Source: a virus. Taken from it: a stretch of DNA of 20,307 nucleotides. Shown piece after piece: positions 1 to 16,918 of this stretch. The stretch is from positions 1 through 20,307 of IMG/VR virus record IMGVR_UViG_3300032315_000609. One strand, given 5' to 3'. The translations under genes and the position numbers were made by a program. The number at the start of each line of letters is the position of its first letter. The first letter of the stretch is position 1. Under the pieces are notes generated by a model. The model ran no database searches. It worked only from the letters and a program-made list of their open reading frames with translations, and was not told where the DNA came from.

Positions 1-3000
1 ACATTTTTTAAAGTTTTTGGTACAGGAATTTTTTCTTTTTCCGAGAGAGCCTTGAGGTTTTTAAGGATATCTCCTAAGTTTGCCGCACGCTTGTAGAATT
101 CTGTCTCAAGAAGAGGATTTGATTCAATAATGTTTAAGACAGCCTGTCTGGCTTCGTTTAGCGGCATCTGACGAACTAGCCGAAGAAGTTTTTGTTTTTC
201 TGTGTCCGAAACACCGAGCTGCTCTAGCTGGTCTCTTAGTACTTGAAGTATAGGAGCATTTTCTTCGTCTTTCGCCCATGCAATGTCTGCTTCCGAAAGT
301 TTAAATTTCGGTTCATAAGGTTGTCCCCAACCTGGGAACTCTCCGGCAGGTAGTTTTTCCTGATTCCGGCCAATTTCTTCTAATAGCAGAAGAGTTTTAA
401 TAGAAAGTCTTTTGTCTTCGTCAGACATCCCTGTAAAATCAAGCTCAGAAATATCTGCTGGTATAGGGAGGGCTCGAGTCGGGGCAGAAGTTTCTTCTTC
501 TACTTCTTCTTCAGTCTCAGTTTCAGTTTCAGTAGTCTCGGTTACTACAGGTTTTTTACCAATAATGTCAATTTGTGCAGTTGGGCGTACATCAATAACA
601 GAGATATTTCCATCAGAGTCTTGAAGAGATAGTCTTACCCAAGGAGTTTTCTGTCCGGAGATAGAGATAGGAGAAGAGTTGATAACTGTTGCAGATTTTT
701 TCTTGTCTGTTCCGGGGACATAAATTCTATCTCCAATTTTTACCTCTGATGCACTAGCGCTATATGATTCCTCAGTGGCTGTTGTTGTAGTAGTCGTCCT
801 CTTAAGCGGAATAAAGTCTCCAATAATGCTGGTAAGATTTCGCATCAAGGAGTCATTAATGTCTCTTTGGGCGGCAACAATTGCAGTTCTGTATTCTCTA
901 CTGTTTACAAAATCTTCTCCGAAGTACTTAACTCTAGAGGGGTCCATCATCACTGCAGTAGCAAAATCAGAAAAAATTTCTTTCACTTTTTTACGAGCTT
1001 CGGCTCTAGTGATGTTGGGGTCTTCGTCAATCAATTTGCGAAGAATAGTCTCAAGGTTTTGCAACGAGTCCACTAGAGCCATATCAATAGTGCTGTCTCG
1101 AACATTTGCAATGGCCTCGACCCGGTCTTCTTCCGAAAGGGTGCCGGCCTCAATCTGCTGCTTAAGCCACTTCCAGTAGGCCTTGTTGCCCTCCGGGTCC
1201 TCTAGTTTGAAGACAGGTTTTTCAGAAATTTGAGCAGAAAATGCGTCAATTTGACGATTAAACTCATCATCGTAAAGTTTGTTAGAGTCGGCTATAGATT
1301 TCTTTTCTACATTTTTAAATACTGCCTTATCGACAACATCTCCAAAAATTTTTTTAAATGTGTCCCTCATAGATGCAATGGAGTTATACACATCCGTATT
1401 CTTAAAAGCCTCTAAAGCTTGTCCCTTAGTGGCGTCGGGATTTTCTTTAAAATATTTAGTAAGAAATCTTTTTACGTCCCCTTCTAGATCCTTGTGAGTC
1501 GCCTCGCTTGCTGCAGTAAACAGTGCATTGACGGCTTCTTTAAGATCCGCCTGGGTGATTTTTCCTTCTTTAATTTTCTCTGCAACCCACTCCCAGTACT
1601 CATGGGTTCCGACCTCCGGTTTTGAGGTAGTGGGTGTAGACAGCTTTTTATTGAGGGCCTCAATGAGTTTTGCACGATCTGCGTCCGATCTAGAAAGAAC
1701 AGACGTTGTGTACTCGCTATCATCTTCAGCAAGCGAGGTGTCGTGGGCAGGGACGGCATCCTTGGCATCAAACATAAGCCAATCAAATGCTGCCTCATTC
1801 TTATCTAGGTTGCCCTTGAAATGGATTACCCCGTCGCTAGTAATCTCAAAAGAAACACCGTTCTCAAGATCTCCCCTTGTGCCAGGTTTTCCACTAAAGT
1901 TTTCTGTCTCATCAGAGACATCTCCAGAGCTTTGCCTTTCTTCATAAAGTCTTTTTAGATTTTCTGCAATAAATTTTACAGCATCTTCGACTGTACCTTT
2001 TTTAATATCAAAACTAAGTGAGTGGGAGGCCCGCTTTAGGTCTCTAAAATAGTTCGGGTTCTTTGGGTCTTTTCCCTTACCGTGGTACTGCAATACGACA
2101 CTGCCAGCGCCACTTTGTCTAAAAAGCGCTGCTGCTTGCTTTAAAAGATCTACATTGTTCCAGTAGTCTTTCCCAAAGACAACCATGACCCCGTCGTCAT
2201 AAACATCGTAATCAATCCCTTCAGCAATTTTAATTTTTTCATCTTTTACAACAACGTCTGTTGTACTTTCGGTTTTTGATAAATCTTTATAGTACTCTTC
2301 AACCTTAAATCCGGCTCTTTCCATTTCGGCTTCAAGTCTGTCCATCTCTAGCTCAATTGCAATGTTTTGGTTTAGCAGAGCAACTTTATCCCGCGAGTTG
2401 TCAGGAAGAGGCAGAAGTGTCTCAGTATTTTTAATATAACGAGCAGACATTTGGTTGTATCTGTCAATTGCAGGTTTTTTTGATTCAAAAACTTCTTGTC
2501 GGGACACTTTATTTTTTATAGGGGTGTATCTCGTGTTCCCTTCTTTTAGCTCCATTTTTTTCTTAACAACGGAGCCCCTGGGGATCTTAATAACACTTGT
2601 CTTGCCGTCTGCGTCTTTAACCACAACGTAGAAGTTTTTGCCATCGGGCTCTAGTGATGCTGAGACAAAAGTGTATTCTTGTCCAGTAGCAATATCAAAA
2701 AGCACATTACCGGCATCAAGCTCATCAATGCCGGTTCTTTTTGTGGGGCCTAAATCTTCTTGTGCTGGTGCTGCAACTTCATCTGCTGGTTTAGGGGGAA
2801 CTACTCGGTAAGAGACTTCTTGATCTAAATCCATAGCGAGGTTTGTTTCGTTAACTTCGTCTCTTAAGGTAAGTCTGTAGAATCCAGGCGAGCCTTTAAT
2901 CTCTACAGGATTCTTGAGTACTGAATACATCTGACCGTCATCAAAAACAATGACGTCACCTTTTTGGAGATTTTTAACTTCATATAGGCCGGATCTGGGA

Positions 3001-3818
3001 GCTTCTGGCTCTTCAGGCGCAATTCCGTCTTCGGTTGGCTCGTCTTTCTTCTTTCGAGCAGCCATTTTATCAATAGTGGCCTCTTGCTCGGTCTGCTTCC
3101 AAACAAAAACAGGTCGATCAATGTTTTTAGTGGGGACCTGCGAAATTCTCTTGTTTTGCCAGCGGACCCAAATCCCATTCTCGTCGTTAGAAACAACAAG
3201 TCCGTAGACATCGTCTCCCTCATCAAAAACAAGGTCTCCGGGCGTAAGCTCAGAATATGTTGTTTGAGTTTTTTCTCTTTTTGCTGCCATTCTGTCTAAG
3301 TTAGGCAGTGGTTCAAGTTTTCTATTAGAGTTGTCTACGTCCTCTTGACTGGCATCGTCTCTAGTGACTCCATTAATGTCAATAATAAGGCCAGGATCTG
3401 ATGGAAGAGCCTGAGTCTCTGCACCAATTCTCTGTAGATACTCTTCAGAGAGTTTTGCCTTAACGCCGAGATCAACTTTTTCCATTGGGAGGTGGTAAAC
3501 TCCGTCAGGAATGTTTGCACTTCCGGTAATTAAAAACTTTCCATAAGTTGGTCCGTCATTAGATGGTCCAATGTAGGTAAAAATCTCACTGCTAACTTTT
3601 CCTTGAGAGTTTCTAACTTTGGAGAGACCGAGTCCGCCCATCTCGGCAAACTGCCCTGCGTTTTCGCCAGTTTGAACTCTTCGCTGAAACTCTGCCCACC
3701 AACCCCAAGGCTTGCCACTTTTGGTAAGAGACTTAATTACTCTACCAATAAGGCTCGCAACAATTGGAGCCAGATCTTCTGGCTCTTGATTATAGGTGCT
3801 TTCGTGGAGGCTAGTCAT
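1..3818 (-). CDS. Second giant multi-module phage protein, 3' end beyond the window
   Basis: The frame is open from an ATG at 3818 to the window edge, giving 1272 visible codons with no stop. An in-frame TAG two codons upstream fixes the earliest start, and the gene overlaps the preceding small gene by 8 nt. Residues about 50-170 resemble the N-terminal module of the 3387-residue giant upstream: both have GQFAEMGG (here about 55-62), then a G-x-Y-x-x-P segment (VYHLP here). That module ends at a boundary motif, LDRMAAK (M177), and a second, IDKMAAR (M252), follows. After these come several short beta-rich stretches of the form L-x-x-G-D-x-(I/V)-x-(F/Y), which look like SH3-type barrels, then a charged helical region. 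Two helical units starting with YW(E/K)W at residues 741 and 881 look like a tandem duplication. No catalytic motif is recognised in the visible part. It is probably a virion-associated polyvalent-type protein or a tail/head accessory; the function is unknown. Confidence 0.85.
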   Translation of the reverse strand, partial: MTSLHESTYNQEPEDLAPIVASLIGRVIKSLTKSGKPWGWWAEFQRRVQTGENAGQFAEMGGLGLSKVRNSQGKVSSEIFTYIGPSNDGPTYGKFLITGSANIPDGVYHLPMEKVDLGVKAKLSEEYLQRIGAETQALPSDPGLIIDINGVTRDDASQEDVDNSNRKLEPLPNLDRMAAKREKTQTTYSELTPGDLVFDEGDDVYGLVVSNDENGIWVRWQNKRISQVPTKNIDRPVFVWKQTEQEATIDKMAARKKKDEPTEDGIAPEEPEAPRSGLYEVKNLQKGDVIVFDDGQMYSVLKNPVEIKGSPGFYRLTLRDEVNETNLAMDLDQEVSYRVVPPKPADEVAAPAQEDLGPTKRTGIDELDAGNVLFDIATGQEYTFVSASLEPDGKNFYVVVKDADGKTSVIKIPRGSVVKKKMELKEGNTRYTPIKNKVSRQEVFESKKPAIDRYNQMSARYIKNTETLLPLPDNSRDKVALLNQNIAIELEMDRLEAEMERAGFKVEEYYKDLSKTESTTDVVVKDEKIKIAEGIDYDVYDDGVMVVFGKDYWNNVDLLKQAAALFRQSGAGSVVLQYHGKGKDPKNPNYFRDLKRASHSLSFDIKKGTVEDAVKFIAENLKRLYEERQSSGDVSDETENFSGKPGTRGDLENGVSFEITSDGVIHFKGNLDKNEAAFDWLMFDAKDAVPAHDTSLAEDDSEYTTSVLSRSDADRAKLIEALNKKLSTPTTSKPEVGTHEYWEWVAEKIKEGKITQADLKEAVNALFTAASEATHKDLEGDVKRFLTKYFKENPDATKGQALEAFKNTDVYNSIASMRDTFKKIFGDVVDKAVFKNVEKKSIADSNKLYDDEFNRQIDAFSAQISEKPVFKLEDPEGNKAYWKWLKQQIEAGTLSEEDRVEAIANVRDSTIDMALVDSLQNLETILRKLIDEDPNITRAEARKKVKEIFSDFATAVMMDPSRVKYFGEDFVNSREYRTAIVAAQRDINDSLMRNLTSIIGDFIPLKRTTTTTTATEESYSASASEVKIGDRIYVPGTDKKKSATVINSSPISISGQKTPWVRLSLQDSDGNISVIDVRPTAQIDIIGKKPVVTETTETETETEEEVEEETSAPTRALPIPADISELDFTGMSDEDKRLSIKTLLLLEEIGRNQEKLPAGEFPGWGQPYEPKFKLSEADIAWAKDEENAPILQVLRDQLEQLGVSDTEKQKLLRLVRQMPLNEARQAVLNIIESNPLLETEFYKRAANLGDILKNLKALSEKEKIPVPKTLKN
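3060..3074 (-). other. Module-boundary motif IDKMA in the second giant (M252)
   Basis: Encodes IDKMA then ARKKK, between two short SH3-like beta-rich segments. Codons are ATT GAT AAA ATG GCT. Confidence 0.7.
3285..3299 (-). other. Module-boundary motif LDRMA in the second giant (M177)
   Basis: Encodes LDRMA then AKREK, at the end of the N-terminal GQFAEMGG module of the left-hand giant, the same position relative to that module as M317 in the first giant. Confidence 0.7.
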
Positions 3819-4074
3819 TCTCTAATTCAATAGCCTTTTTTTCTTTTTGACGCTGTTTCCACTCGATATACCAACGAGCGTCGTCTCCGGTTAAATCGTC
3901 AACTCCCTTCGAGATATCAATCCCAATTCTTTCACGTAAGGCTAGGCGCGCTACATCTACGCGAGCATCCACCCACAGCTCTTCAAGTTGGTCGTCGGTG
4001 AGGTCAGAGACCTTGACCTCGGCGTCGCCAGCTCCGGTAAGGTGTAGGGAGATAGTTTGGTTTTCGTAATCCAC
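3811..4074 (-). CDS. Small acidic protein of unknown function, paralogue A
   Basis: This 87-residue protein has a GTG start at 4074 that shares one nucleotide with the TAG stop of the preceding gene (TAGTG), so the two are probably translationally coupled. Its stop lies inside the next gene. The C-terminal half, with LALRERIGIDI and then DARWYIEWKQ, matches the neighbouring 85-residue protein in pattern: an Arg-rich helix, G-(I/F)-D, a Lys, a T-(G/P)-(D/Q)-DAR segment and an aromatic/Trp helix ending in Lys. The N-terminal half looks like a short beta hairpin followed by an acidic helix. There is no signal peptide, membrane segment or known enzymatic motif. Small acidic proteins here could be tail-assembly chaperones or scaffolds, but nothing in the sequence decides this. 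Confidence 0.75.
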   Translation of the reverse strand: MDYENQTISLHLTGAGDAEVKVSDLTDDQLEELWVDARVDVARLALRERIGIDISKGVDDLTGDDARWYIEWKQRQKEKKAIELEND

Positions 4075-4331
4075 TAAACTTCCTTCTCTGTGTCGTTCTC
4101 ATCTTCTATTGTATCGGAATTTTCTTCGAGCCACTTTTCGTAGTCCCGAGCGTCCTGGGGAGTTTGCTCTTTAATTGGCTTGTACGGGTCAAAGCCTTTG
4201 CGCCTACGAAATTCGTAGCGTGCTTGCATAATTCCTAAAGATGCAAAGTGAAAAAGACGGCTAAGAGGCATGACAGAAAAGTCATGCTCAACTTCCTCGA
4301 TTCCGGCATCACCGTTAATGATAATTTTCAT
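4074..4331 (-). CDS. Small protein of unknown function, paralogue B
   Basis: This 85-residue protein has an ATG start at 4331, 8 nt after the stop of a 43-residue gene. The N-terminus (MKIIINGDAG) suggests a beta strand. A central helix with YEFRRRKGFDP leads to TPQDARDYEKWLEE and a strongly acidic tail. The segment from the Arg-rich helix to the Trp resembles the same region of the next gene downstream, so the two probably arose by duplication. The ribosome binding site is weak (only purine-rich GAGAAGAAG upstream), which fits coupling to the previous gene. No family is recognised. Confidence 0.75.
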   Translation of the reverse strand: MKIIINGDAGIEEVEHDFSVMPLSRLFHFASLGIMQARYEFRRRKGFDPYKPIKEQTPQDARDYEKWLEENSDTIEDENDTEKEV

Positions 4332-4339
4332 AGCAGCGG

Positions 4340-4471
4340 CTACTTCTTCTCGGCCTCTACTACAGCTTCCTTAATATCTTCTGGAGAGTCTGTATTTGGC
4401 TCAAAGTACCCAATCCAATACTCTTCATCTTTGAGGGGGTCGTAGTTGTCCATGTTGTACTGTTCGGCCAC
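4340..4471 (-). CDS. Very small acidic protein (43 residues), unknown function
   Basis: A GTG at 4471 opens a 43-codon frame ending in TAG at 4340-4342. A clear AGGAG lies 5 nt upstream of the GTG; an ATG six codons further in (4453) lacks such a site. The product begins MAEQYNMDNYDPLKDEEYW, is rich in Asp/Glu and Tyr, and ends in a predicted helix with EAVVEAEKK. It fills the only sizeable gap between the 3387-residue giant and the next small gene, with spacing of 42 and 8 nt on the two sides, as expected for an operon member. No homology is recognised. The evidence is the good ribosome binding site and the packed context, not the protein itself. Confidence 0.6.
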   Translation of the reverse strand: MAEQYNMDNYDPLKDEEYWIGYFEPNTDSPEDIKEAVVEAEKK

Positions 4472-4476
4472 GTAGT

Positions 4477-4481
4477 CTCCT
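4477..4481 (-). promoter_or_regulatory. Ribosome binding site deciding a GTG start
   Basis: AGGAG read on the minus strand, 5 nt before the GTG at 4471. It supports the 43-residue gene and its GTG start over the internal ATG. Confidence 0.6.
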
Positions 4482-4513
4482 AAAACTAAATCTTACCCAA
4501 GTATACCAAAGAA

Positions 4514-7500
4514 TTAAAGATCTCTTTGTATTTTTTCATCTACCAGTTCTTTTAGTTCGTTATAAGACATTCCAAGTCTTTCTGCCCAGAATCTAATTAT
4601 TTGCTCCCTGGCGCTCGGGGACGTGATGGATGCCAGCGTGGCAACAATAGACATCAAGGATTCGTATGTCTGGCCAGATAAGCTCCACTCAAAGAACCCC
4701 TCCATAAGCAAGCCACTCTCAAGATCTAGCCTATTCTTGATTGCCGCTAAGAGAGCCTCTTTCCCACCCTCTTTGTAGATATCGGCTGGATCATTTGAGT
4801 CTTTAGTGGCCTCTCCGTCCGAAACAGAGACTGGCCTATTTACCATGCTGTGGAGGATCGGGTAGTCATATCCGATCTTCAGGGCTCTTCTTGCTGCCTT
4901 ACGTCCGGCTGCGTCAGGGTCTAGGAAGAAAACCATTTCTCTAAATGGCTTGTCTCCTGGTTTAGTGAGGCCCATAAACATGTTAATATGTGCCTTGGTA
5001 AACTCAGATCCCATGATTGCAACAGCATTGTCAATGCCGGCTGCCTGCATAGCAATGACGTCCATTTGACCTTCAACAAAGAATATCTGATTTCTCTTTT
5101 GAATACCTTCGCGGGCAACATCAAGACCAAACACAGACTCACTCTTCTTAAAGATTGGAGATGCTTTGGTATAAACGTATCTAGCATCGTCTTCGGGGTT
5201 TACTGTTCGAGCCGTAAACGCTAGGATGTTTCCGTCAGCATCTTTAAGAGGGATGACAATTTTGTCGTCTCCAGTGCTTCCGACAATTAGGACATCGTAA
5301 ATAGTCCCCGTTCCCTCTTTAATGTTGACTAAGCCAGAAAGGACCATGTCTTCTTTACTGAATCCAAGATCAGTAAGGTGGTTAAACAGAGCTTTCCAAC
5401 CTCCGCCCTTGTTGTATCCGGCAGCCCGCCCTAATTGGAACTTCTTAGCATCGTTGATGTTAAAGCCCCGGCTTACTAGGTACTTAATAGCAGGAGAGTA
5501 CTTAGATGCAGACGTTAGGTTGTTTTCGTAGAACTCTGCCGCAGCTTTGTTAAGTGCATAGAGTCGCTTAGTTACCTCTTCATTGTCTTCTCCAGGTACT
5601 TTAGCCGCCATCTTGTCAATTTCAGCTCCTGGGCCACCCGATGCGGCAATGAGGTCCTTGAGGGCCTGAAGAGCTTCAACTCTTCTTCTAGGTGCGTCAT
5701 CTCCACCAAGGCTAAGTCTCCACGTGCCAGACTTTCCATGCCAGAAGAACTTAAATGGGCGACCATTATTGTCAACGGTCACTGACTTGATCTCATCTTT
5801 GTACCTCTTGGTGTCACCGAGAAGGATAATCTGATCCCCCTCAATTCGGTAGTTTACTCCGCTACCTAGTCCATTAAATTCACCAGATGCTCCAGTAATG
5901 ATTCCAGTCTCAGCACCGATTGCTTCTGTGGGAGTGTAGTCAGTATCGGCGTCAGCCTCAACAAGACCCTTATCCATTGACAACCAGTACCCGCCAAGAA
6001 TGTGCTCTACTGCTTGTCCGGCAAGAGTTGCGGCTTCCATAACCATAGCTGGGTCATCTTTAAGTGACTCAAGCCAGCCCCCAACGTAAGAGACAGAGTT
6101 ATCATATGTGACATCAATATTGAAAATTTGAGCAAGCATTGCAGCGCCAATCTCAGCGATAAGCTCTTCTCTTGCCCTACTTTCAATGTGTGCACCGTAG
6201 TTTTCTAGAACATCTTTACGATTTAGTCTAGCCGGGTCTGCGGTACTGTGGGTTAGCTCGTGAGTAAGAGTTGCAAAATATTCTTCAGCACTAGAGAATT
6301 GGTTTCTAAGTGGCAAGAATATAGTGTCTAGCTGAGGAGCCCAATATGCCTGGTCTTGCGGACGATTGAAGATCGGGGGTTTATTTGTATAACTATCAAG
6401 AATAATAGTCTCAGCATCTAGAGTCTCGATCGGCTCACGAGTTGCCGCTGGAGGTAGAGTAATTCCCTTGATATCGTCTTCGTTATAGACAGTGTAGTAC
6501 CCGACTCGGGGGAACTTCTTCTCTACTTCGCGTACCTGATCAATTACCTTGTTGGAATCATTGGGATCTGGTACCTGGGTAACTTCTTTCTCTGTCTTTT
6601 TTACAGTACTGACATAAGAAATAGTTGTAGGGATAGCAGTGTCCTCAACGTAGCCACCCATTTTTTTAATCGCATTTGCGGTATACCATCTAGTTCCCTT
6701 GTAGCCCCGCATCTCGCTAACAAGATTGAGCCAAAGAAGGTTAAAGCGTCGGTAGACCTTACCCGACGACCCGGAAGTTGGAAGTGTTCCATCTACAGAC
6801 CAAGGCTTTTGCCAAGGAAGCTTTCCAGATTCTTGAATAGCCTTAATCATTTGATTGCCCATTTCTTCGGCAAACTTTTGATTACCAGAACGAACTTCCG
6901 AAGCGCCAGCTTCGTCTAGAGGCTCTAGATCGGAGCCTGGACCGCTTTCTGTAGGAATTTCGTTGTCATCGCTCTTAGGAGCCATTCTGTCAATCTCGGG
7001 TGCCTGCGCTTGAGGCGCAACGTCGCCGCCCTCATCAGCAAAACGGTGACTCTCGAGCTCTTTGAGGTCTCCAGTGACAACCCACTCTAAGGATCCAGGA
7101 TCGAGGGCATCTTCGGCTCGAGTGATTGCTACATAGCCATTATTAAGCTCATCTTCAGAGAATGCTCGGTTTCTTGACTCTGCTCCTTCGCGAGGATCGT
7201 AGAAGTCGTTCCAGAGTTTAACGCGCTGGCCCTCAAGACCTTTAGCGTTGTGCGCTGTCATAAACCTAATTACAATGTCATCACCATTTAGGGAGAAGAC
7301 AAGATCTGTTAGCTGCATTTCAAAATTTGCTGCTACGTTTTTTACAAATCGAGGTGCTGTCTTTCCTGGCTGATACTCGTAGTCTTCTTTCACATACCCA
7401 AGTCTTTCGAGGACTTGTCTATTGTCAAAGATCCCATCTCCATATTTTCTGTTAAAGGTGCTGTTTACAAGATAAACTTTATCTTTTTCGCGCCTAAACG

Positions 7501-10500
7501 AAATGTTTCCTCCAATAGAACCTTCGGACCCAATAGTAGCAGGCATCCGGAAAGTCTCTCGCTTAAGGCTTAGTTTCTCCACCATATCAATAATTTCTTC
7601 AATGGCTTCTGATTCTTTTTTGAGCCTCGAGGTGCTCTTTACTTGATAAATAAGGTTTTTATAGACCTTAAGCTCTCTATCTTCCGCAGCCGCAGCCATG
7701 AACATATCCCAAGTTAAAAAGTTAGCTAGTTCTGCTGGAATAGTCTTTGGCCTGTACTGAGGGTTGGCTCCATATCTGAGCCACTTTAGTGTCCTCATGT
7801 TTTCTAGAATACGCTTTTTAAAGTTAATAGTTGTCCCAAAAATTACAGAGTTTCCCTGGAGGATACGGAAGTAGTACAGAGCCTCAACAATTCCAGAGTT
7901 TGTCCTAGCCAACAAAAGATCTGGGTCATCCATTGAACCGGCTTTAAGTATCTCTGTTGTTTTGTATGGGTTTCCAGTAAGGTCTTTTTTATTGCCCAAG
8001 TGCTTTAGAATTTTGTCTGCAACTTTGGCAAGTTCTGGTCCAAATCTCCAACTCTGAGTTAGTGGCAACATGTAGTCAGTCTTAATGACCTCAAAAGCAT
8101 TAATAGTTCCACGGAAACGATACATCGACTGGTTTCGGTCACCAATGATTAGGAACACTATGTCTACTTTGTGCAAATCTTGTTGGTCGGCAAGAATTCC
8201 ACCAAGGACTTCATTGATGTCCTGAGCCTCATCTAGGATGACTAGATCGGGAGCTCCGCTTTTAAGCCCGTGAGGACTCTTATTGTCAGATCCGATTTCT
8301 TTCAAATTGGGTCGAGTTAGGCCCCAATTTTTTGTCATCATATCAAAATCAATCTGAATCTGAGGGCCTTCTCTGTCTAATGGATCCGTAACATCTTTCC
8401 ACATTCTTCCTGCCATATCAATGTAGAAGAAATATTCTTCATAAGACTCTGGAGCGTAGTCTCCCATTTCTTCGATCATATCAATATGCCGAATATTAGG
8501 CGAGGCATCAGACGAAAGGACCCAGTTCTTAAAAGTAGCGACTATGATCCGCTCTGCGGTCAGTCTAGGAGCATTCTTGGGGAACCCGCTGGCAGTATCT
8601 AGTCTTTGAGGAAGTTTGTCGATCCTAGGCGCGTTAGGATTTTTAAACTGATATGCAGCATACATTTCTCGAGTAAGCTGTTCCATATCCCGCTTGGTGG
8701 CATTTTTAAGCCATTCTGCGACATCTTCTGGGTCGTCAGTCCCGATAATTCTTCCAACGGCGGCAAGTCTATTTTCTTTAGACATTGCAACTTGATAGTC
8801 TTTGTCGGACATGTCAAGATCATAACTATTGCTCTCAAAGAACCCAAAGAAGTCCATAAGGGCGCCTGGAATACGAAGATTTACTCGAGCATGGTAGCTG
8901 GCAGTTAGGTTTGACTGCTCGTCAAATTTTGTTGACATAGATCTATTAGCAGAAGCAGCTTTAGAAACAGAGTGAGAAGTTCTTGACTCAACAAACTTTG
9001 GCATTCGACGCTCAGCATCAAGTTGAGTCTCTTTGTTAAAGACAAGGTTGAGGACTCTTGATTTAGGGTTTAGCTTTTTATATGCTGCAGATAGTACTAC
9101 CGCAAGAGAAGTTTTACCTACACCGGCGTACGCTTCAGCACTGACACCTCTTTGATTTAGGATGGCGTTAATAATCTGTCGACCCTCTTCGGTCGGAGGG
9201 AACTTAAGGTCAAGCTCCTCTTCTACGCCACTAAATAGGTCTGGGAGGCTACTAATGTCAGGAACAGCGTCCTTCTTTTTTCTAGCAGCCATTTTATCAA
9301 TTTCTGGCTTGCCGGCTGGGAACCCCCCTTGAGGAAGACTATCAGCAATGTCTGAGTTAGCATCGAGAAGGTCAAACTGATCAATAGCATTTTTAAGTCT
9401 AACAATTATTCCGTTTGCTGCTCTATTTGAGTAGGCTTTTGTTTTTACGGCAGACTTATAGGCTTCGGCAATCTCACTAGTGATGCCTTTTCGAGAAAGC
9501 AGCTGATCTACTAAATTGAGGATCTGTGAGTAGTGGTCTTGGTTTGCACCATCTAAGTTTGACGATTCTGCAACAACAAGATTTGCAGCTTTTTCAGGAT
9601 AAACGGACTCGGCGTATCCAACAAGGACCTCGCCAACGTTTGTCCCGAATCCCAAAACTCTTGCTACCTGATCGGATGAGCCCTTAGTGACATTCATTCC
9701 GTAGTCAATTAGAATGCCGTTTTTAGAGATGTATCTATTTGTTACAGGGCTCAGTTGTTGCGCAGGAGTCTGCTCTAGGTTAAACTTCTGCTCTCTTTCC
9801 CCACCAACAGCGAGATAGTTTACAAGAAGGTTCCCTCCAGGAATAAGCCCAACAACCTGGCCCACTCGACCATCGCTGATATTAAATGCATATGTCCCAC
9901 CGGGAAGACCCTTAATCGTTGCAGGAACAGGGGTTACAATTGCATCCCTATTCTCACTTGAAATTGTGAGGTTTTCGGTCATAGACTTGAAATCAGAAAT
10001 CATTTGATTTTCAATGTCTTCGGCTGTGAGCCCCTGCAGTGCCAAAATACGCTTGTATCGGCTAATCCAGTACGCTACAGCCTTTTCTTCATACTCAGCA
10101 ACCGCAGAGTCGTACTTCTCTTGGTCCCAGCCGTTAAGAGATTTTTCATACGAAAACTCTGCACCACCGAGTGCAAGGCCCCGCTGAGCGCGGTCAAACA
10201 TTGCATTAAGAACGTCAACGGTAGATGCAACGTCAGCGTCTGCTTCGTGGCGACCGTTGTTAGAAAGTCCGAAGTAGGTAACTAGAGCTTCAAGAGTGTG
10301 AGCCGGCACCTGAACTCCGTAGAGTCTTCTCTTTAGGTTCTCGTCGTATCTGCTGCCAATTTTGTATGGTGCATCGGGGTTTTCGGGGGACCACTTAGGC
10401 ATCATGTGTCGAGCAAGTCCAAGAGTGTCAAGATATCCAGAAGGGTTGAGCCCCTCTAGACCGGCTTGTCTCATTGTACGATCAAGAACCTCTTTATCAA

Positions 10501-13500
10501 AGACATAGAAGTTGTGCCCACCAATAATAGACCCTTGGGGTATAAAGTCCATAACTTGCTGCATAACTTCTTTTTTCGTGGGGAACTGAGACAAGAATTC
10601 GGGAGTAACTTTTCCGCCCTTGCCGTCACCTACGCCGCTAAGGGTGTAGGCACTAAGCTTTGATTCAGGATTGATATATGTCGAAAATACATCCACAACT
10701 TGTAAGTTTTTAACCTTAGAAATAGCAATCTGGACGGGGTCGTTTTTGATTTCTGGATCGTCAAGATCTACAAGTCCGGTAGTTTCAAAGTCAATGATGT
10801 AGAACTCTGAGTTCTTCAACAGCGAGACAACATCGTCCCAAGAAGTTGCTCCTTTGAGAAGATCAAACGCAGGCCCAGCAAAGGTTGGTGGGTCAACGTA
10901 AGGACTTCTTGGCTTATCGACCTGAGTTGGAATGGTGACCATCTTGTCAATCTCTGAAGCAAGTTCTTGGTCTTCTGGGGTTCCAGCAAAAACGCCAGCC
11001 TTATACAGACCAACAAGGTCTAGAACAGCAGACTTTGCTCTAGTTAAGGCATCCCTGTCTGATGCTTTTTTACTTCGGGGGCTGCCGTAGATTCCTGGGG
11101 CATCGGTCCTAATTGTAAGAAGTCCCTCAGCAATTTGCTCGAGTCTGTCGTTCAACTCTCGAGGAGTTAAAAGAGGATTACGTCGGCCAAGATGCATGGT
11201 GTAGTGGATGACGTTTAGGTCCCCGTTTGCAGCTTGTAGAATTTTGCGTGCACCGGTACTAAGTTTGTCGGGGGTTAGGCTGTACAGATCTGCAAAAACG
11301 CCAAACACGCTGCGAATGCCACGGCGGAGTCGCGCTAGGTCTGCTCGAAGAGCCTGCCCGGCCAAGAACTCGTCGTTTACAACAAATGAGTCCTCATCTG
11401 GAGTAGAGACAATAGTGTTGACAACATTAATTGGAGTTCCGGCTTCGAGAGCTTTATTAATTTCAGCTTCCGTTGAGCCAAGCCACTTACCAGGAAACTT
11501 TGGCGTGTATCCTTCAGGAATCTCGACAAGGCGCTTACCTTCTGCACCATTACGAAGTCCTGCTATCTCGTATCCCTTTTTAATTGACTGCTCTAGGATA
11601 TGCTTGTCGTGAGCATTTTCAATTTCTTTATACTTATTTAAATATTTAGTAGAGACTTCTTCTCGAGTCATGTCCGGGATGGCTTTTACCATTTCTTCCC
11701 ACTCAGACGCATCGCTAATAAAGTTTCTAAAGCGCATGCGCTCAAGAGCGCGAAGCATTCTCGGGGTTGGGGTTGTTTTTCCGCCTTCAGGCAGGTTAGA
11801 TTTTAAAACACCAACTGCACTGTACTTCTTACGATTAGGCAGCGCTTGAAGAGTATCAATTATTTCTTTAATAATTTTTCTTGGCTGGTTCGGGATTATC
11901 CTTGTGAGACGGTCAATTTCGTCAGCAGAGATGTCTTTGTTTTCAAATAAGAACTCGACCATTGCAAGCATGGCATCACTAGGGATAAAGCCCTCTTGAG
12001 TCATATTAGTGAATAGGTAGTTTGGCTTTAAGTTGGTTGGAACAATCGTGTTGTTGTTTGTTGAAGAACTGTCGTCTCCAATTGCTTTTTGGAGCTCAGT
12101 AATTGCGTTTGAGGCCTCTCTGGCCCAGTATCCTAAGTAACTTGCTCTAATTGAATTGAGTCTATCTTCAGGAATGGCATTGCCGACGCGCTTAAGAAGT
12201 CTTTCAATAAGAGCTTTCTGGGCGGGCGTAATTCTTCCTCTTTGACCGACCTTAGATTCAGCGGGGGTCGTAGGTCCGCTAGGAGTTCCGGTGTCTGTCG
12301 AAGTGGACACCACTTCTGCAGGCTTAGATCCATTAATAATATAAAACAAACGACGAGCTTCGGCGTTGGTGTACTCGTCTCGGTTGTCTCTAATAGCGTC
12401 GTAAGCACGTCGCATTTCGGGAGTGTGGTCGGGGTTGGCAAATAAGAGCTTACGGAGAGCGGTAAATCTGCTTCCCGTAACGGGGCCGTCTGGATCTTCG
12501 CCAACCAGTCGAATGGCACTCTTGTCTTCTTCTGTCGGAGTAAGAAATTCGTGTACGTCAAAACCTGTCGCAGACCCGACGCCATCTTTAAGGAAATTAA
12601 GGGCATCAATAGTGTCTTGAAGAAGTTCAAAAGACAGGTTTCGATAGTTCCCTGCTATCTGATCTTTGGTGATCCCATCTCTACCGCCAATTTTAATTCC
12701 GTTTTCTGGAAAATTGACAACGGCAAGGAGGTCACGAATAATTTGACGTCGAGCAGCACTAAGCTTTCCGTAGCTTGTTTCGTTACCGCGAGACTCTGCC
12801 CGGTCAGGTTGCTTGTTAAAAATACCTAAAAGTTTGCGTGCTTGCTGAGTAATAAAGTTGTCGCGTAATGTTGCCATTTCGTCAAAGATGTCGACCATCT
12901 CAGGAGTAAGCTCTTTTTGGTCATACTTTTTGTGCACAGTCGAGAAAAGAGCAGCACTAATTGGGTCAGTCGCTCCCTTAATAGAGAGGTCCTTTTCGCT
13001 CATAGCAACCAGCTCTTCGCGGCCTGGCGTCAGCTCATCGCGGTTGGGAGCCATTCTGTCGAGATCGCTGTCTGGGATCTCGGTGGGGTTGAATCTAATA
13101 GCGGTTACAAGCTCTTCAACTCCGTCCCAGTTAAATGCAACACCAATAGTCTCATTGGTGGCAAAATCAGTAACCTCAAAGACGTCGTCAAGGTGTACTG
13201 CATTTCCGTCTTCTTCAACAGTAAATAGTGCGCGACCAAACCGTGCCTGATATCCGGTATAAGGATCAATGAAAACATTTGGAATATTTTCAATCCAGTT
13301 TTTGGGCTTGTCTGCTCTAGGGTCAATTACAGCAGGAGTTTCGCCTTCCTGCGTTTCTTCCTCTTCAGGCTCTTCGTCTCTTGGTGCCATTCTGTCAAGT
13401 GGGACGGGGCTTGGACCTCTGTCAACTTCGGGAAGTGGCTCGTTTTCTGCTTCTGGGTATGACGCATCTTCTTCAGTTGCAAGCTTTTGTACGGATGCCC

Positions 13501-14677
13501 AATCTTGAGCATAGCCAACAACCTCGGTTTGACCACGCTTCGTTGAAATAAGTTCGTAAACGGGGAAGTCAGGGCTTAGGGTGTCGGTTCCAGATGAGCT
13601 AATTACCTGAGCATTGAAAACCTCTCGAGCGTCCGAGACACGTCGAGCAAGAGCACGTCCTTCATTCTCATTCTCAAAGTAGTTTGCTCTATATCCGTCA
13701 CCAGTTGCATAAGTCTTCTTAGGGGCCATCTTATCAATGCCGGGGACCTCTACAGAAGAGCGTGACTCAAACCAACTTGTCGGAAACTCTTTGCGGCGAA
13801 GAGTTGCAAGATCGACAAACTGCACATTTCTGTCAGGAGAAACATCGATTGATTTTGAAATTGCGTGTTCAGGAAGAATTGCCTTGAATGTGTGAGAAAT
13901 ATTGGAAGGAATAGTGTAGATACCATTTTTTAGGCCCTTAACACCAGAAACTTCAACATCAATACCTTCTGGGTCATTTTCAGGAAGGCCAGCGATCTTA
14001 CCAACAATTGATAAGAGTCTTCCGTTAGGAAGTCGTCCATAGAATCGAACTCCACCGCCCATTTCAGCAAATTGGCCTTCATCGTCACGACGCTGCTTGT
14101 TTGCACGCATGGCACGGTGCCAGAAGCTGTTTTTACCAGCATAAGGATCGCCAAACGCCAAGAGTGGTGTAATTAAGAGGTCGGACGGGACCTGACCCTC
14201 TCCAAGGGATTGAAGGCGTGTCAAATGATAGGTGCGCTCGACAGAAAATGGGTTACTGGCATAGACAGCAGCAACAATTGCACGCGCTTCGTCTGAAACA
14301 ATTCGTGGGTCAGCTGCAAGCCACTCAGCTTGAAGAGAGCGGACAGTGTCAAAAGAAAGGTCGGCTTGCTTCTTGGAATATGGGTTAGAGATTGGCAAAA
14401 GATCTGCGTGCTTAGCGGATCCGCTAGCTGTGATGCCCTGAGTAGCTAGAGTAATAAAACTATTGACTTCACGAAGAGTATTGAAGAACTTTACGTCACT
14501 ATCGAAGTTAGAGTAGAAAGCAAGGGCACGCTCGGCAACCTGAAAAAGAGCTTCTTCATCAACCATGCGCGCTTGAGGAGCCTCGACACGGGTCGATTCA
14601 AGAATATCAATAATGGCGTGCTTAAGATTTAGCTCGTCACCAAACTCTGCATCAAATGCGTCAACTAAACTGCTCAC
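4514..14677 (-). CDS. Giant polyvalent protein: DEDDh exonuclease, SF1 helicase, ArdC/zincin and DnaG-type primase
   Basis: This 3387-residue protein starts at a GTG overlapping the previous stop by 4 nt (GTGA). Order: N-terminal module 1-316 with GQFAEMGG around 201-208; two small modules (317-429, 430-541); a helical region (542-1245) with degenerate repeats; a DEDDh exonuclease with DFETTGL (D1296, E1298), D1394 in NFYVFDKE, and H1477/D1482 in HEADAD; a beta-rich segment and another helical repeat to 1795. A UvrD/FBH1-like SF1 helicase follows, with Walker A AGVGKT (K1855), Walker B DEAQD (D2149, E2150), then GDRNQSMYRFRG, TAHNAKGLEG and YVAITRA. The ArdC-like part has an N-terminal DNA-binding region (W-x-x-PW) and zincin HELTH (H2806, E2807, H2810) with EELIAEI. 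The DnaG-type core and Toprim carry E3202 and DPD 3253-3255 but no zinc-finger cysteines. (I/L)D(K/R)MA motifs sit at M317, 430, 542, 1796, 2565 and 3023, plus IDKMV at 1246. The family theme is delivery of protective and replication enzymes with phage DNA. Its place beside the portal suggests head packaging, which is inference. Confidence 0.93.
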   Translation of the reverse strand: MSSLVDAFDAEFGDELNLKHAIIDILESTRVEAPQARMVDEEALFQVAERALAFYSNFDSDVKFFNTLREVNSFITLATQGITASGSAKHADLLPISNPYSKKQADLSFDTVRSLQAEWLAADPRIVSDEARAIVAAVYASNPFSVERTYHLTRLQSLGEGQVPSDLLITPLLAFGDPYAGKNSFWHRAMRANKQRRDDEGQFAEMGGGVRFYGRLPNGRLLSIVGKIAGLPENDPEGIDVEVSGVKGLKNGIYTIPSNISHTFKAILPEHAISKSIDVSPDRNVQFVDLATLRRKEFPTSWFESRSSVEVPGIDKMAPKKTYATGDGYRANYFENENEGRALARRVSDAREVFNAQVISSSGTDTLSPDFPVYELISTKRGQTEVVGYAQDWASVQKLATEEDASYPEAENEPLPEVDRGPSPVPLDRMAPRDEEPEEEETQEGETPAVIDPRADKPKNWIENIPNVFIDPYTGYQARFGRALFTVEEDGNAVHLDDVFEVTDFATNETIGVAFNWDGVEELVTAIRFNPTEIPDSDLDRMAPNRDELTPGREELVAMSEKDLSIKGATDPISAALFSTVHKKYDQKELTPEMVDIFDEMATLRDNFITQQARKLLGIFNKQPDRAESRGNETSYGKLSAARRQIIRDLLAVVNFPENGIKIGGRDGITKDQIAGNYRNLSFELLQDTIDALNFLKDGVGSATGFDVHEFLTPTEEDKSAIRLVGEDPDGPVTGSRFTALRKLLFANPDHTPEMRRAYDAIRDNRDEYTNAEARRLFYIINGSKPAEVVSTSTDTGTPSGPTTPAESKVGQRGRITPAQKALIERLLKRVGNAIPEDRLNSIRASYLGYWAREASNAITELQKAIGDDSSSTNNNTIVPTNLKPNYLFTNMTQEGFIPSDAMLAMVEFLFENKDISADEIDRLTRIIPNQPRKIIKEIIDTLQALPNRKKYSAVGVLKSNLPEGGKTTPTPRMLRALERMRFRNFISDASEWEEMVKAIPDMTREEVSTKYLNKYKEIENAHDKHILEQSIKKGYEIAGLRNGAEGKRLVEIPEGYTPKFPGKWLGSTEAEINKALEAGTPINVVNTIVSTPDEDSFVVNDEFLAGQALRADLARLRRGIRSVFGVFADLYSLTPDKLSTGARKILQAANGDLNVIHYTMHLGRRNPLLTPRELNDRLEQIAEGLLTIRTDAPGIYGSPRSKKASDRDALTRAKSAVLDLVGLYKAGVFAGTPEDQELASEIDKMVTIPTQVDKPRSPYVDPPTFAGPAFDLLKGATSWDDVVSLLKNSEFYIIDFETTGLVDLDDPEIKNDPVQIAISKVKNLQVVDVFSTYINPESKLSAYTLSGVGDGKGGKVTPEFLSQFPTKKEVMQQVMDFIPQGSIIGGHNFYVFDKEVLDRTMRQAGLEGLNPSGYLDTLGLARHMMPKWSPENPDAPYKIGSRYDENLKRRLYGVQVPAHTLEALVTYFGLSNNGRHEADADVASTVDVLNAMFDRAQRGLALGGAEFSYEKSLNGWDQEKYDSAVAEYEEKAVAYWISRYKRILALQGLTAEDIENQMISDFKSMTENLTISSENRDAIVTPVPATIKGLPGGTYAFNISDGRVGQVVGLIPGGNLLVNYLAVGGEREQKFNLEQTPAQQLSPVTNRYISKNGILIDYGMNVTKGSSDQVARVLGFGTNVGEVLVGYAESVYPEKAANLVVAESSNLDGANQDHYSQILNLVDQLLSRKGITSEIAEAYKSAVKTKAYSNRAANGIIVRLKNAIDQFDLLDANSDIADSLPQGGFPAGKPEIDKMAARKKKDAVPDISSLPDLFSGVEEELDLKFPPTEEGRQIINAILNQRGVSAEAYAGVGKTSLAVVLSAAYKKLNPKSRVLNLVFNKETQLDAERRMPKFVESRTSHSVSKAASANRSMSTKFDEQSNLTASYHARVNLRIPGALMDFFGFFESNSYDLDMSDKDYQVAMSKENRLAAVGRIIGTDDPEDVAEWLKNATKRDMEQLTREMYAAYQFKNPNAPRIDKLPQRLDTASGFPKNAPRLTAERIIVATFKNWVLSSDASPNIRHIDMIEEMGDYAPESYEEYFFYIDMAGRMWKDVTDPLDREGPQIQIDFDMMTKNWGLTRPNLKEIGSDNKSPHGLKSGAPDLVILDEAQDINEVLGGILADQQDLHKVDIVFLIIGDRNQSMYRFRGTINAFEVIKTDYMLPLTQSWRFGPELAKVADKILKHLGNKKDLTGNPYKTTEILKAGSMDDPDLLLARTNSGIVEALYYFRILQGNSVIFGTTINFKKRILENMRTLKWLRYGANPQYRPKTIPAELANFLTWDMFMAAAAEDRELKVYKNLIYQVKSTSRLKKESEAIEEIIDMVEKLSLKRETFRMPATIGSEGSIGGNISFRREKDKVYLVNSTFNRKYGDGIFDNRQVLERLGYVKEDYEYQPGKTAPRFVKNVAANFEMQLTDLVFSLNGDDIVIRFMTAHNAKGLEGQRVKLWNDFYDPREGAESRNRAFSEDELNNGYVAITRAEDALDPGSLEWVVTGDLKELESHRFADEGGDVAPQAQAPEIDRMAPKSDDNEIPTESGPGSDLEPLDEAGASEVRSGNQKFAEEMGNQMIKAIQESGKLPWQKPWSVDGTLPTSGSSGKVYRRFNLLWLNLVSEMRGYKGTRWYTANAIKKMGGYVEDTAIPTTISYVSTVKKTEKEVTQVPDPNDSNKVIDQVREVEKKFPRVGYYTVYNEDDIKGITLPPAATREPIETLDAETIILDSYTNKPPIFNRPQDQAYWAPQLDTIFLPLRNQFSSAEEYFATLTHELTHSTADPARLNRKDVLENYGAHIESRAREELIAEIGAAMLAQIFNIDVTYDNSVSYVGGWLESLKDDPAMVMEAATLAGQAVEHILGGYWLSMDKGLVEADADTDYTPTEAIGAETGIITGASGEFNGLGSGVNYRIEGDQIILLGDTKRYKDEIKSVTVDNNGRPFKFFWHGKSGTWRLSLGGDDAPRRRVEALQALKDLIAASGGPGAEIDKMAAKVPGEDNEEVTKRLYALNKAAAEFYENNLTSASKYSPAIKYLVSRGFNINDAKKFQLGRAAGYNKGGGWKALFNHLTDLGFSKEDMVLSGLVNIKEGTGTIYDVLIVGSTGDDKIVIPLKDADGNILAFTARTVNPEDDARYVYTKASPIFKKSESVFGLDVAREGIQKRNQIFFVEGQMDVIAMQAAGIDNAVAIMGSEFTKAHINMFMGLTKPGDKPFREMVFFLDPDAAGRKAARRALKIGYDYPILHSMVNRPVSVSDGEATKDSNDPADIYKEGGKEALLAAIKNRLDLESGLLMEGFFEWSLSGQTYESLMSIVATLASITSPSAREQIIRFWAERLGMSYNELKELVDEKIQRDL
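5606..5620 (-). other. Module-boundary motif IDKMA (M3023)
   Basis: Encodes EIDKMA then AKVPG, between the ArdC/zincin part and the DnaG-type primase. Confidence 0.75.
6980..6994 (-). other. Module-boundary motif IDRMA (M2565)
   Basis: Encodes EIDRMA then PKSDD, between the helicase and the ArdC-like module. Confidence 0.75.
9287..9301 (-). other. Module-boundary motif IDKMA (M1796)
   Basis: Encodes EIDKMA then ARKKK, immediately before the SF1 helicase module. The sequence closely matches the M252 copy in the second giant (IDKMAARKKK in both). Confidence 0.75.
10937..10951 (-). other. Variant boundary motif IDKMV (M1246)
   Basis: Encodes EIDKMV followed by a Pro-rich linker, just before the exonuclease module. 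The usual Ala after Met is Val. Confidence 0.5.
13049..13063 (-). other. Module-boundary motif LDRMA (M542)
   Basis: Encodes LDRMA then PNRDE, between a small beta-rich module and the long helical region. Codons are CTC GAC AGA ATG GCT. Confidence 0.7.
13385..13399 (-). other. Module-boundary motif LDRMA (M430)
   Basis: Encodes LDRMA then PRDEE, after a Pro/Glu-rich linker and before a strongly acidic stretch. Codons are CTT GAC AGA ATG GCA. Confidence 0.7.
13724..13738 (-). other. Module-boundary motif IDKMA (M317)
   Basis: Encodes IDKMA followed by PKK, at the end of the N-terminal GQFAEMGG module of the 3387-residue giant. Codons are ATT GAT AAG ATG GCC. Confidence 0.7.
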
Positions 14678-16905
14678 TCTGGTTCACTTTCTGTTTGTTG
14701 CTTAGGAAGTAGATCTGCGTCTTTGCTGTCGTATAGGTTGATTGCTAATTCGGCTGCCCGGTCGAAGGGGGACTCGTTATTGGCAACTCCCCGACGCCAC
14801 GCTGCTCTAAAGATGGGAATAGATTCGTAGCCAAGACCTGAATACTCGGCCAGGGCATAAAGCGCATCCTCTGGGCTCTGGTATGTTGACTCATCTTCAA
14901 TCTGAATGTAGAGTTCTCTTTCGGCATAACCGGTAGCCGTCATTGCCGAAGCGGTCCTGCTACTCTTGGGGTGGCCGCTAGGGAGCAAGTCGTTGTCTTG
15001 CGTATATTTGGAGTTTGAGGGGCTACCAGACTTCACTAGCTTAAGGAACGCGTTGACTCGAGCGTGCGCCCATGAGTTGCGGTTCTGGTCTGGGCGGTGG
15101 CTAGTAGAGAATGCTCCAGCGCCACGGCGGTAGACTGCCTTAAGCATTGAGAGAGTGACCTTCTTTGAATCGGCGGTGACGCTCTTGTTGTGGGTCTCAA
15201 CTTTTTCCTTAAGTGAGTCCTCAACCTTCTTGGAGAAGGTGACCTTACGTCCGCTAGAGGCGGAACCCTTTTTGTTCTTGTCAGAACCCTTGATCTGGTC
15301 TTTCTTGGGGGCTGGCTTAGAACCTGCGGTGGCAGTTACAGACGCTTCGTTGTCTGGAACGCAGTTGGGGACCATCTTTCCATTTTTCTCTTTCATTCCA
15401 ACCTGCTTGTAGCCGTCCCAGCAAGGTCCGTCGGAGGCAAGCTCGATGTCTTCTGGATCGATAAGGATTGGGTCAAATCCTGTGGACTCAATTGAGGAAG
15501 TTTCTTTCTGAACGTCTTCAGTAATTGGTCCGCCAGCTGCCCAGGCGTTACAGGTGCGGCTAGCAGCGCACTTAAAATCTAGAGCGGTGCAGTAGCCGAG
15601 CTCTGCTTGGTCAATTGCGTCCCATGCGCTTGCTTCGCCGGAGCCGCCTTCGGCAATTCCGGTTTCGATGCAGTCTAGAGTCTTAGGGCGGCGGTCAAAG
15701 AAGACGCAGTTGCCACAAATACTCTTTTTGGCTTCCATGGGGTCAATGTTCCAACGGTCGCCCTTGTCCTGCCAGAACTCGTCGTTGGGCTCTGCTGGGT
15801 TGAGGGGGCCGTAGCCAACATTGTCGATTGCCTTTTGGCGGTTTTCGATGTTGAGCGCAATGTCCTGAGTTGCGGGAGGGCACTTTCCGCCATAGTCAGC
15901 ATCAGCGAGAAGAGACTTAACACCTTTTGGACGTCGGATCTTGTCCATGTCGAGCATCTCGGCGGGAGCACCTGCTCCGCCAGAAAACTCTCCTGGACGA
16001 TATTCGTGGTTGCCTTTAGTTTTCCCTGCGGGGGCTTTTGACGGGTCAACGGCTCCGTCGGGAAGAACTGCGAAACGGCAGTAACCCTCGGGGTGAACAG
16101 AGAACGCAACAACGGCGCACTTGTCTCCGCCTTGGTAAAGAACGCAGTTTCCGCACTTTACGCCCATCTCAGCGTATGGATTGTCTTCGGGCTCGTGATA
16201 ATCTGCCCAAATACCGGTTTGATCTTCGTCAAACTTTCCATATTTGTCAGCAATCTCAACGAGAGCTCGGGCTAGGTCTTTTTCTTCAGGAACTAGACGT
16301 CCAGCGGCAACAAGAGCGTTTCTACTGGTAAAAACAGTTGGCTGAAGTTCCACAACTACGGGGTGCATGCCCTCGTGAGTTGCATTTACAGGAACTTCAG
16401 CCTCAGATTTTCCCAAGGGAGCCGAAACTGACATTGAGTCAGCCCCAATCGTGGTTCCGATCTGCCAAATCCACTTATCAACGATGTCAATGCGTCCCGC
16501 AAGGAAATCTGCGATTCCCTGAGCGCTAATAGCATTTGCAACAGCAAAAGCGTCGTTAAGCTTGGCGCAGTGGGCAACGTAGGCCATATAGAGGTTGGCC
16601 GACATCTCCATTGGGTCGCCAGAGGCGGGTCGGACCTCAATGCAGCTCAGTGCAGCGAGTTCGAGGAGGAAGTGGGGGGCGTCAAAGCCGAGCTTGCGGA
16701 TATTTTCAGCAATGGGGTCCTCGGCCTCCGCTGCATCTTCATAAAGCTCCTGGAAAAAGTCGTGAAACTGAATAAATTCAGGTCCTTTGACGTTCCAGTG
16801 GTATCCGTGAGCAAGATAGTGAATTGTAACGTTGTCAGCGAGGATGCACGCAAGTAATTTTGCTAGCCCTTCCTTACTGAGCTCGTATTCTGATTCTTTG
16901 TACAT
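14674..16905 (-). CDS. Dps-like ferritin domain fused to cysteine-rich phage head modules
   Basis: 743 residues; ATG at 16905 with AAGGAA 7 nt upstream, overlapping the portal stop. Residues 1 to about 160 are a Dps-type four-helix domain with the signature YHWNVKGP. Against E. coli Dps, ferroxidase-site residues H36, H48, D63 and E67 are kept, but the Asp of the second helix is Gln (Q52). Then come two Cys clusters: C251-x2-C254-x8-C263-x12-C276, ending G-Y-C like small HiPIP-type iron-sulfur domains, and a CGNC cluster with C397, C400, C412, C439, C446 and C452. Between them is CPPATQDIALN (from C342). Further on are CWDGYKQVGMK/VPNCVP (about 495-526) and a FSTSHRP...ARVNAFLK...QDNDLLP module (about 598-642), both of kinds that recur in phage head proteins. 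The C-terminal helical module ends KDADLLPK. It sits where a protease or MuF gene often follows the portal. A role inside the head, protecting or condensing DNA or handling iron, is inference. Confidence 0.88.
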   Translation of the reverse strand: MYKESEYELSKEGLAKLLACILADNVTIHYLAHGYHWNVKGPEFIQFHDFFQELYEDAAEAEDPIAENIRKLGFDAPHFLLELAALSCIEVRPASGDPMEMSANLYMAYVAHCAKLNDAFAVANAISAQGIADFLAGRIDIVDKWIWQIGTTIGADSMSVSAPLGKSEAEVPVNATHEGMHPVVVELQPTVFTSRNALVAAGRLVPEEKDLARALVEIADKYGKFDEDQTGIWADYHEPEDNPYAEMGVKCGNCVLYQGGDKCAVVAFSVHPEGYCRFAVLPDGAVDPSKAPAGKTKGNHEYRPGEFSGGAGAPAEMLDMDKIRRPKGVKSLLADADYGGKCPPATQDIALNIENRQKAIDNVGYGPLNPAEPNDEFWQDKGDRWNIDPMEAKKSICGNCVFFDRRPKTLDCIETGIAEGGSGEASAWDAIDQAELGYCTALDFKCAASRTCNAWAAGGPITEDVQKETSSIESTGFDPILIDPEDIELASDGPCWDGYKQVGMKEKNGKMVPNCVPDNEASVTATAGSKPAPKKDQIKGSDKNKKGSASSGRKVTFSKKVEDSLKEKVETHNKSVTADSKKVTLSMLKAVYRRGAGAFSTSHRPDQNRNSWAHARVNAFLKLVKSGSPSNSKYTQDNDLLPSGHPKSSRTASAMTATGYAERELYIQIEDESTYQSPEDALYALAEYSGLGYESIPIFRAAWRRGVANNESPFDRAAELAINLYDSKDADLLPKQQTESEPE

Positions 16906-16912
16906 GGTTATT

Positions 16913-16918
16913 TTCCTT
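16913..16918 (-). promoter_or_regulatory. Ribosome binding site of the Dps-fusion gene
   Basis: AAGGAA on the minus strand, 7 nt before the ATG at 16905. It overlaps the TAA stop of the portal gene, so translation of the two is probably coupled. Confidence 0.55.

Follow-up and report, generated by a model that had tools for sequence, protein, structure and literature searches.

Polyvalent proteins of phages are very long multidomain proteins encoded beside portal genes, and ArdC-N, MPTase-PolyVal, helicase and primase domains are found among their modules (PMC5512222). The two giant proteins of the locus described here share these features, but no repeated peptide at the junctions between modules is described there, whereas here there is one such seam peptide per lineage. 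Iyer et al. 2017 linked MPTase domains with self-processing, citing DdrB of phage P1, while the virion RNA polymerase of N4 has an MPTase yet is packaged uncut, which counts against cutting by zincins (PMC5512222). In P1, the prohead protease takes off the first 75-90 residues of DarA, and DdrB is processed as well (PMC12810830, PMC5512222). The Dar and Ddr proteins are packaged, processed anti-restriction proteins, as the giants may be, but a repeated inter-module peptide is not described for them, and here a candidate prohead site lies near the N-terminus, apart from the seams. In SPN3US and phiKZ, many packaged proteins are cut at one short consensus, AXE (PMC10052503), as may be the case here. 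Those cuts take off propeptides, and portal and capsid proteins have the site too, whereas the seam peptide is found in the giants only. The DarA and AXE precedents, which mainly concern N-terminal removal by a prohead protease, match the xTA^ sites described below and not the seams.

Short recurring peptides also serve other systems. The polyproteins of RNA viruses, e.g. those with potyvirus NIa sites, use one consensus per virus at many junctions, and this consensus differs between relatives. The present case differs in that the virus is a dsDNA phage, cutting is a prediction and the protease a candidate. In encapsulin cargo-loading and in the linker repeats of carboxysomal CsoS2, short disordered repeats organise cargo; these bind a conserved shell or enzyme, whereas here the shell is conserved and the peptide is replaced. 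No account of a seam peptide of this kind turned up in a search of open-access papers.

The locus and its two giant proteins

The window, i.e. the whole stretch of DNA analysed, corresponds to one entire IMG/VR record (20,307 bases) and represents a freshwater phage fragment. The order of genes on the minus strand is portal, ferritin/Dps-like protein, giant A, two small ORFs and giant B (Table 1); Pfam and PHROG searches with the two small ORFs gave no match. Giant A unites more than one domain for conflict or DNA processing and so fits the definition of polyvalent proteins in PMC5512222. As is typical of that class, it is encoded in the head region: the portal gene lies upstream in the window, and in relatives the giants lie between the portal and the protease and MCP genes. 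This gene order and the literature on polyvalent proteins suggest that the giants are probably packaged in the head. A strand-rich N-module is common to giant A, giant B and every relative, and a fold search with its model returned nothing significant (best E 0.12, with weak Spindlin/Tudor-like matches).

Two further features of the window were observed. The sequence DLLPxxHPxSxK, a possible head-targeting signal, is found both near the N-terminus of giant A (residues ~91-104) and towards the C-terminus of the Dps-like protein, and recurs in the DSL-LC01 homologues of the two. The contig end (20039-20307) is a degenerate GC-rich tandem repeat of GTGGCGC units, which may have caused the assembly to stop.

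Table 1. Genes, domains, seam peptide copies and candidate prohead-protease sites in the window
Feature	Position	Strand	Remarks
Portal	16917-18668	-	PHROG portal; best phage match Actinomycetia phage DSL-LC01, 70%
Ferritin/Dps-like protein	14674-16905	-	
Giant A	4514..14677	-	3387-aa polyvalent protein; seven motif copies
Two small ORFs	3811-4074, 4074-4331		between giants A and B; alike in size
Giant B (left giant)	3..3818	-	N-terminal 1272 aa, truncated by the contig end; two motif copies
ITASG	14420-14434	-	giant A, near N-terminus; candidate prohead-protease site; kept in G001
N-module (R-x-x-GQFAEMGG)	13763..14134	-	giant A; strand-rich domain
IDKMA, M317	13724-13738	-	giant A; boundary of N-module and next domain
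LDRMA, M430	13385-13399	-	giant A; low-confidence linker
LDRMA, M542	13049-13063	-	giant A; low-confidence linker; LDRIS in G001
IDKMV, M1246 (variant)	10937-10951	-	giant A; 48 aa upstream of exonuclease domain; kept in L006-L009
DnaQ-like exonuclease domain (RNase_T)	10211..10798	-	giant A residues 1294-1489; Pfam
IDKMA, M1796	9287-9301	-	giant A; ~55 aa before helicase Walker A
UvrD-type helicase domain	7103..9178	-	giant A residues ~1834-2525
IDRMA, M2565	6980-6994	-	giant A; helicase/ArdC seam
ArdC-N domain	6485..6877	-	giant A residues 2601-2731; Pfam
MPTase-PolyVal zincin (HELTH)	6026..6361	-	giant A residues 2773-2884; Pfam; candidate processing enzyme
IDKMA, M3023	5606-5620	-	giant A; ArdC/primase seam
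DnaG-like primase N domain and Toprim	4877..5533	-	giant A residues 3049-3270; Pfam
IVAS	3753-3764	-	giant B, near N-terminus; candidate prohead-protease site
LDRMA, M177	3285-3299	-	giant B; N-module end
IDKMA, M252	3060-3074	-	giant B

A repeated peptide at the module boundaries

The original prediction had placed copies of [IL]D[KR]MA at the module boundaries of both giants, and all of them are present where it put them, with the lengths of the intervening pieces correctly calculated. Giant A contains six exact copies and one IDKMV, and giant B two exact copies, against 0.007 and 0.002 expected from composition shuffles; none of the seven D[KR]M tripeptides in giant A lies outside a motif copy. 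Because [IL]D[KR]MA had been picked after inspection, a second, blind search was run, in which patterns could mix exact and class residues and shuffled sequences served as controls. It returned D(K/R)MAx(K/R) for the window pair with p ~1e-15, against 1e-6.6 for the best shuffled result, and reached 1e-22 in the close relative G001. The copies were said to be followed by P or A and usually one or more basic residues, which does not hold for IDKMV at M1246.

The placement at boundaries was borne out, since no copy lies inside a Pfam domain in giant A of the window, nor in G010 or G012, and the exonuclease domain, which the prediction had overlooked, adds a further module. Two low-confidence AlphaFold models from eight sequences (mean pLDDT 58 and 64) cover five copies, four of which (M430, M542, M2565 and M3023) fall in inter-domain stretches with pLDDT <50; the copy at M317 sits in a coil of 15 residues that separates two strand-rich domains, with pLDDT ~80.

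G001, a 39.8-kb contig (loci L007, L010 and L036), carries the same locus, with a giant A that is 79% identical to that of the window across the alignment. Eight of the nine window copies stay [IL]D[KR]M(A/V/S) in it, the remaining one being LDRIS. The contig spans all of giant B (L010), a protein of 4714 aa in which eight seam copies were counted; an IDRML within its PIF1/Dda-type helicase is a chance match. At the helicase/ArdC seam, a module of ~147 aa has been inserted and, as it bears its own motif copy, the seam now reads IDRMS-module-IDKMS. The motif is confined to the giants, and G001 supplies more junction copies.

The seam motif is selected at the protein level. Codons agree among copies at 0.42-0.60, where codons drawn at random according to the usage of the giants give 0.39-0.49. 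G001, G012 and G014 show a slight excess; such near-random codons among copies point to selection on the peptide. In orthologue pairs, amino-acid change is lower in motif codons than in the flanks (0.11 vs 0.21 for the window and G001, 0.11 vs 0.18 for G002/G003, 0.46 vs 0.66 for G013/G014), while in the same pairs silent changes are about as frequent in motif codons as in flanks. An origin of the copies as recent DNA duplicates was rejected, as amino acids are kept and codons are not.

Replacement of the peptide in sister phages

A portal profile retrieved 80 IMG/VR loci, and giants were inspected in about 22-25 further genomes; these relatives are metagenomic contigs, several of them truncated by contig ends, and G013/G014 and G002/G003 are close pairs. 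IDKMA occurs as a repeat in none of these relatives' giants. The closer relatives carry a different repeated peptide in its place: VEE(S/M)(A/S)S in G002/G003, PxVD(R/K/A)(K/M) in G006, (E/I)QEM(A/S) in G007 (7 copies vs 0.017 in shuffles), (S/T)PII(K)K in G008, a weak (P)Q(L/F)M(A/S)F in G009, GPSPK(E/Q/K)E in G010 (18 copies, 1e-35), PSQNRE in G012 (13 copies, 1e-39) and GFxQxPG in G013/G014 (~20 copies, 1e-33 to 1e-39). The motif scan can overlook degenerate peptides, as the QEM(A/S) of G007 was found by eye and several phages gave low-complexity P/E patterns. The first few of these peptides could be taken for variants of a single drifting one, P-x-(I/V)-(D/E/K/Q)-(K/R/E)-M-(A/S); the others are unrelated. 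A profile search with the N-module added further contigs of the GPSPKEE and PSQNRE types and a distant MGM(A/S)(I/L)P type.

The replacement occurs at equivalent positions. In ten phages, a seam peptide precedes the Walker A of the UvrD helicase by ~50-60 aa; this stretch reads KPEIDKMAARKKK in the window, APQIEEMAAPKK in G002, GPIVDAKKKTPK in G006, EIIQEMSDMGPKK in G007, KPIIKKMSSERPAD in G008, KPQFMAFQESEPKK in G009, GPSPKEERPAD in G010 and APSQNRERPED in G012. The seam equivalent to M1796 is thus occupied in sister phages by IEEMA, IIKKM, IIQEM, IVDAK, PQFMAF, GPSPKEE or PSQNRE. Depending on the phage, the peptide ahead of the ArdC module is IDRMA, IDKMS, LMLMAF, GPSPKEE, PSQNRE or GFAQKPG, and in six phages the ArdC/zincin module is bordered by the phage's own peptide. 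Within each of these genomes, one peptide stands at most junctions, as expected of a junction code. According to the original prediction, homologues that share the domains but have no conserved boundary motif would refute it; taken literally this is the case, as they have no IDKMA, but the closer ones hold another repeated peptide at the same seams.

The peptides are restricted both within and between genomes. Other head proteins of the locus contain none, and whole contigs of G012-G014 contain none beyond the giants, except for one reverse-strand chance match in G014. An exact DNA pattern for IDKMA(P/A)K, searched across IMG/VR, found outside the lineage only single copies in unrelated proteins. 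Cultured phages (DSL-LC01 and phages of Microbacterium, Arthrobacter and Gordonia) have no IDKMA repeat, and their giants mostly show low-complexity P/E patterns. The scan detected no seam peptide in the group of DSL-LC01, G016, G020 and G027, despite equally long giants, and G016, G020, G024 and G027 have the helicase with a pre-helicase linker lacking a repeated motif. The motif is real, placed at junctions, selected as a peptide, carried along with modules, replaced between lineages and absent from other head proteins.

Some other giants are built differently. In L291, FYDDxNGFxPxSxG occurs four times at ~115-residue spacing (residues ~701-1040) and may be a repeated small domain, not a seam peptide. 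Giants made of repeat units, with no detected seam peptide, are found in G015 (L139/L230; five GNAT-like repeats) and G020 (L158/L221; tandem repeats). The giant of G014 (L214) consists of two overlapping ORFs of 3319 and 1779 aa, against one 4801-aa ORF in G013, through either a frameshift or a real split. The distant lineage of L280, L297, L301 and L302 has the seam-like MGM(A/S)(I/L)P in three copies, together with an ArdC-type zincin signature.

Candidate readers of the seams

The prohead protease of a relative is an S78 peptidase (Pfam Peptidase_S78) within a polyprotein of ~1430 aa or more. Sites of the form (V/L/I/M)(T/V/S)A(S/A/G) occur in this polyprotein, in the MCP, in the portal and at the N-termini of both giants; those of the MCP include VTA(S/A)AE and AITAGADIPG, the latter in all MCPs compared. 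These repeated xTA sites look like the cut site of the prohead protease and resemble the herpesvirus assemblin consensus. Across different motif types, identity is 66-84% for the MCP and 56-74% for the protease polyprotein, the xTA^ sites of the MCP are unchanged, and [IL]D[KR]MA is found in neither the prohead protease nor the MCP nor the portal. VTASAE, LVAAG, LTAAA and ITASG are examples of these sites, which are present in all head proteins of the clade (among them the L036 MCP and protease polyprotein, and the window portal at ~18515-18535).

Zincins have a different distribution. HEY(G/A)H or HE(L/F)xH(S/A)(T/S) signatures are present in 11 of the 11 motif genomes counted (G008, which meets a contig end, is omitted) vs 0 of 13 without a motif, and HELAHSTGH is also present in the distant MGM(A/S)(I/L)P lineage; hence a packaged zincin would be the first candidate for the reader. 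Pfam confirmed an ArdC-type MPTase in the window, G010, G012, G013 and G014, while G002, G003, G006 and G007 have only a HEYGH-type zincin, barely recognised by Pfam; HExxH sequences of other kinds occur in G018, G021, G024 and G015, which have no detected motif. The ArdC zincin is alike across phages with very different motifs, and zincins seldom require six-residue sites, which counts against a zincin reader. A ParB-like module with (D/E)GNHR has nearly the same distribution. The zincin link may reflect shared ancestry, because the motif genomes are mostly one clade, and since several domains, zincins and ParB-like modules among them, track this clade, no single reader is picked out.

The main idea of the original prediction was that the ordinary prohead protease cuts the seams. 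The location of the giants between the portal and the protease and MCP genes is consistent with it, as is the use of short repeated sites by head proteases, e.g. AXE in SPN3US (PMC10052503). The idea now appears very improbable, because the seam peptide changes fully among phages in which the S78 protease is conserved together with its putative sites in the MCP, the portal and its own polyprotein, and because these substrates hold no [IL]D[KR]MA. What stands of the prediction is a recognition signal, for cutting or docking, as the best reading; what is not supported is a head-protease site, as the S78 protease, MCP and portal carry another candidate site common to all, xTA^S/A/G. Nor does the MCP co-vary with the peptide, as it stays 66-84% identical across unrelated peptides. 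As protease and MCP are conserved while the peptide is replaced, the seam peptide is probably neither the usual signal of a prohead protease nor a label for a shell that is itself conserved; to judge from the sequences, a conserved protease or shell cannot easily read peptides so varied. That argument also weighs on docking, in which the seam peptides would bind a partner (a scaffold, a core protein inside the head, or one of the giants' own domains), whereby an uncut chain of 3000-6000 residues would be threaded into the prohead and arranged there. Docking agrees with a copy number that grows with giant length (7-25), with copies in flexible linkers, and with DarA and Hdf being required for the packaging of other Dar proteins in P1 (PMC12810830), and peptide selection with coordinated change suits a co-evolving partner as well as a protease. 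As the MCP and protease polyprotein are too conserved to partner such different peptides, no other locus protein contains the motif and the search for a candidate partner came back empty, docking, although the chief rival to cutting, is possible but rather doubtful.

Two readings dispense with a protein that recognises the peptide. A short recombination site for module shuffling, with the peptide as by-product, would account for the insertion, duplication and exchange of modules at seams and for the slight codon-identity excess in three phages; it is largely refuted by the near-random codons and by silent changes as common in motif codons as elsewhere, and is very improbable. Hardly any more credible is a linker cap without a partner, or internal translation starts: the linkers are Pro/Glu-rich and the window motif includes an ATG, but plain linkers need no exact hexamer in 10-25 copies that is replaced as a set. 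Internal starts were rejected, as GPSPKEE, PSQNRE and GFxQxPG have no Met/ATG.

Copies that are uniform within a genome, replaced as a set, junctional and selected as peptides form the pattern of a polyprotein junction code. We infer, with moderate confidence, that such a code is recognised by a reader which co-evolves with it, and that this reader is most likely a zincin peptidase, packaged with the giants, by which they are cut into modules. The seam peptide would be a short linear signal at nearly every module boundary of two probably packaged giants. One factor per phage would read all copies, and for this reason they would resemble one another in any given genome and change in concert from phage to phage. 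The most likely reader would be a peptidase, above all the zincin module or modules inside the giants themselves; the linkers would be cut at the prohead stage, inside the head or once the giants have been ejected, freeing the exonuclease, helicase, ArdC, primase and other modules. The S78 prohead protease would come into play before that and at other places, namely the xTA^S/A/G sites close to the N-termini of the giants and those of the MCP, the portal and its own polyprotein. A more speculative and doubtful extension is that the peptide is a phage-specific barcode: each lineage would have its own, which its reader alone accepts, so that a phage's own cargo, and not that of a co-infecting relative, is cut or packaged, and newly captured modules would have their peptide rewritten to the local barcode.

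If the seams are cut, these tailed dsDNA phages would resemble RNA viruses in relying on polyproteins, and would deliver a set of early enzymes as one or two chains of 3000-6500 residues. How giant packaged proteins get through the tail and end up as separate enzymes, a long-standing question, would become directly testable, and a whole set of naturally occurring protease/site pairs would be available. Should the seams dock instead, they would represent a code for internal packing that evolves faster than the capsid. Whether cut or docked, the motif would be an objective marker for module boundaries in polyvalent proteins.
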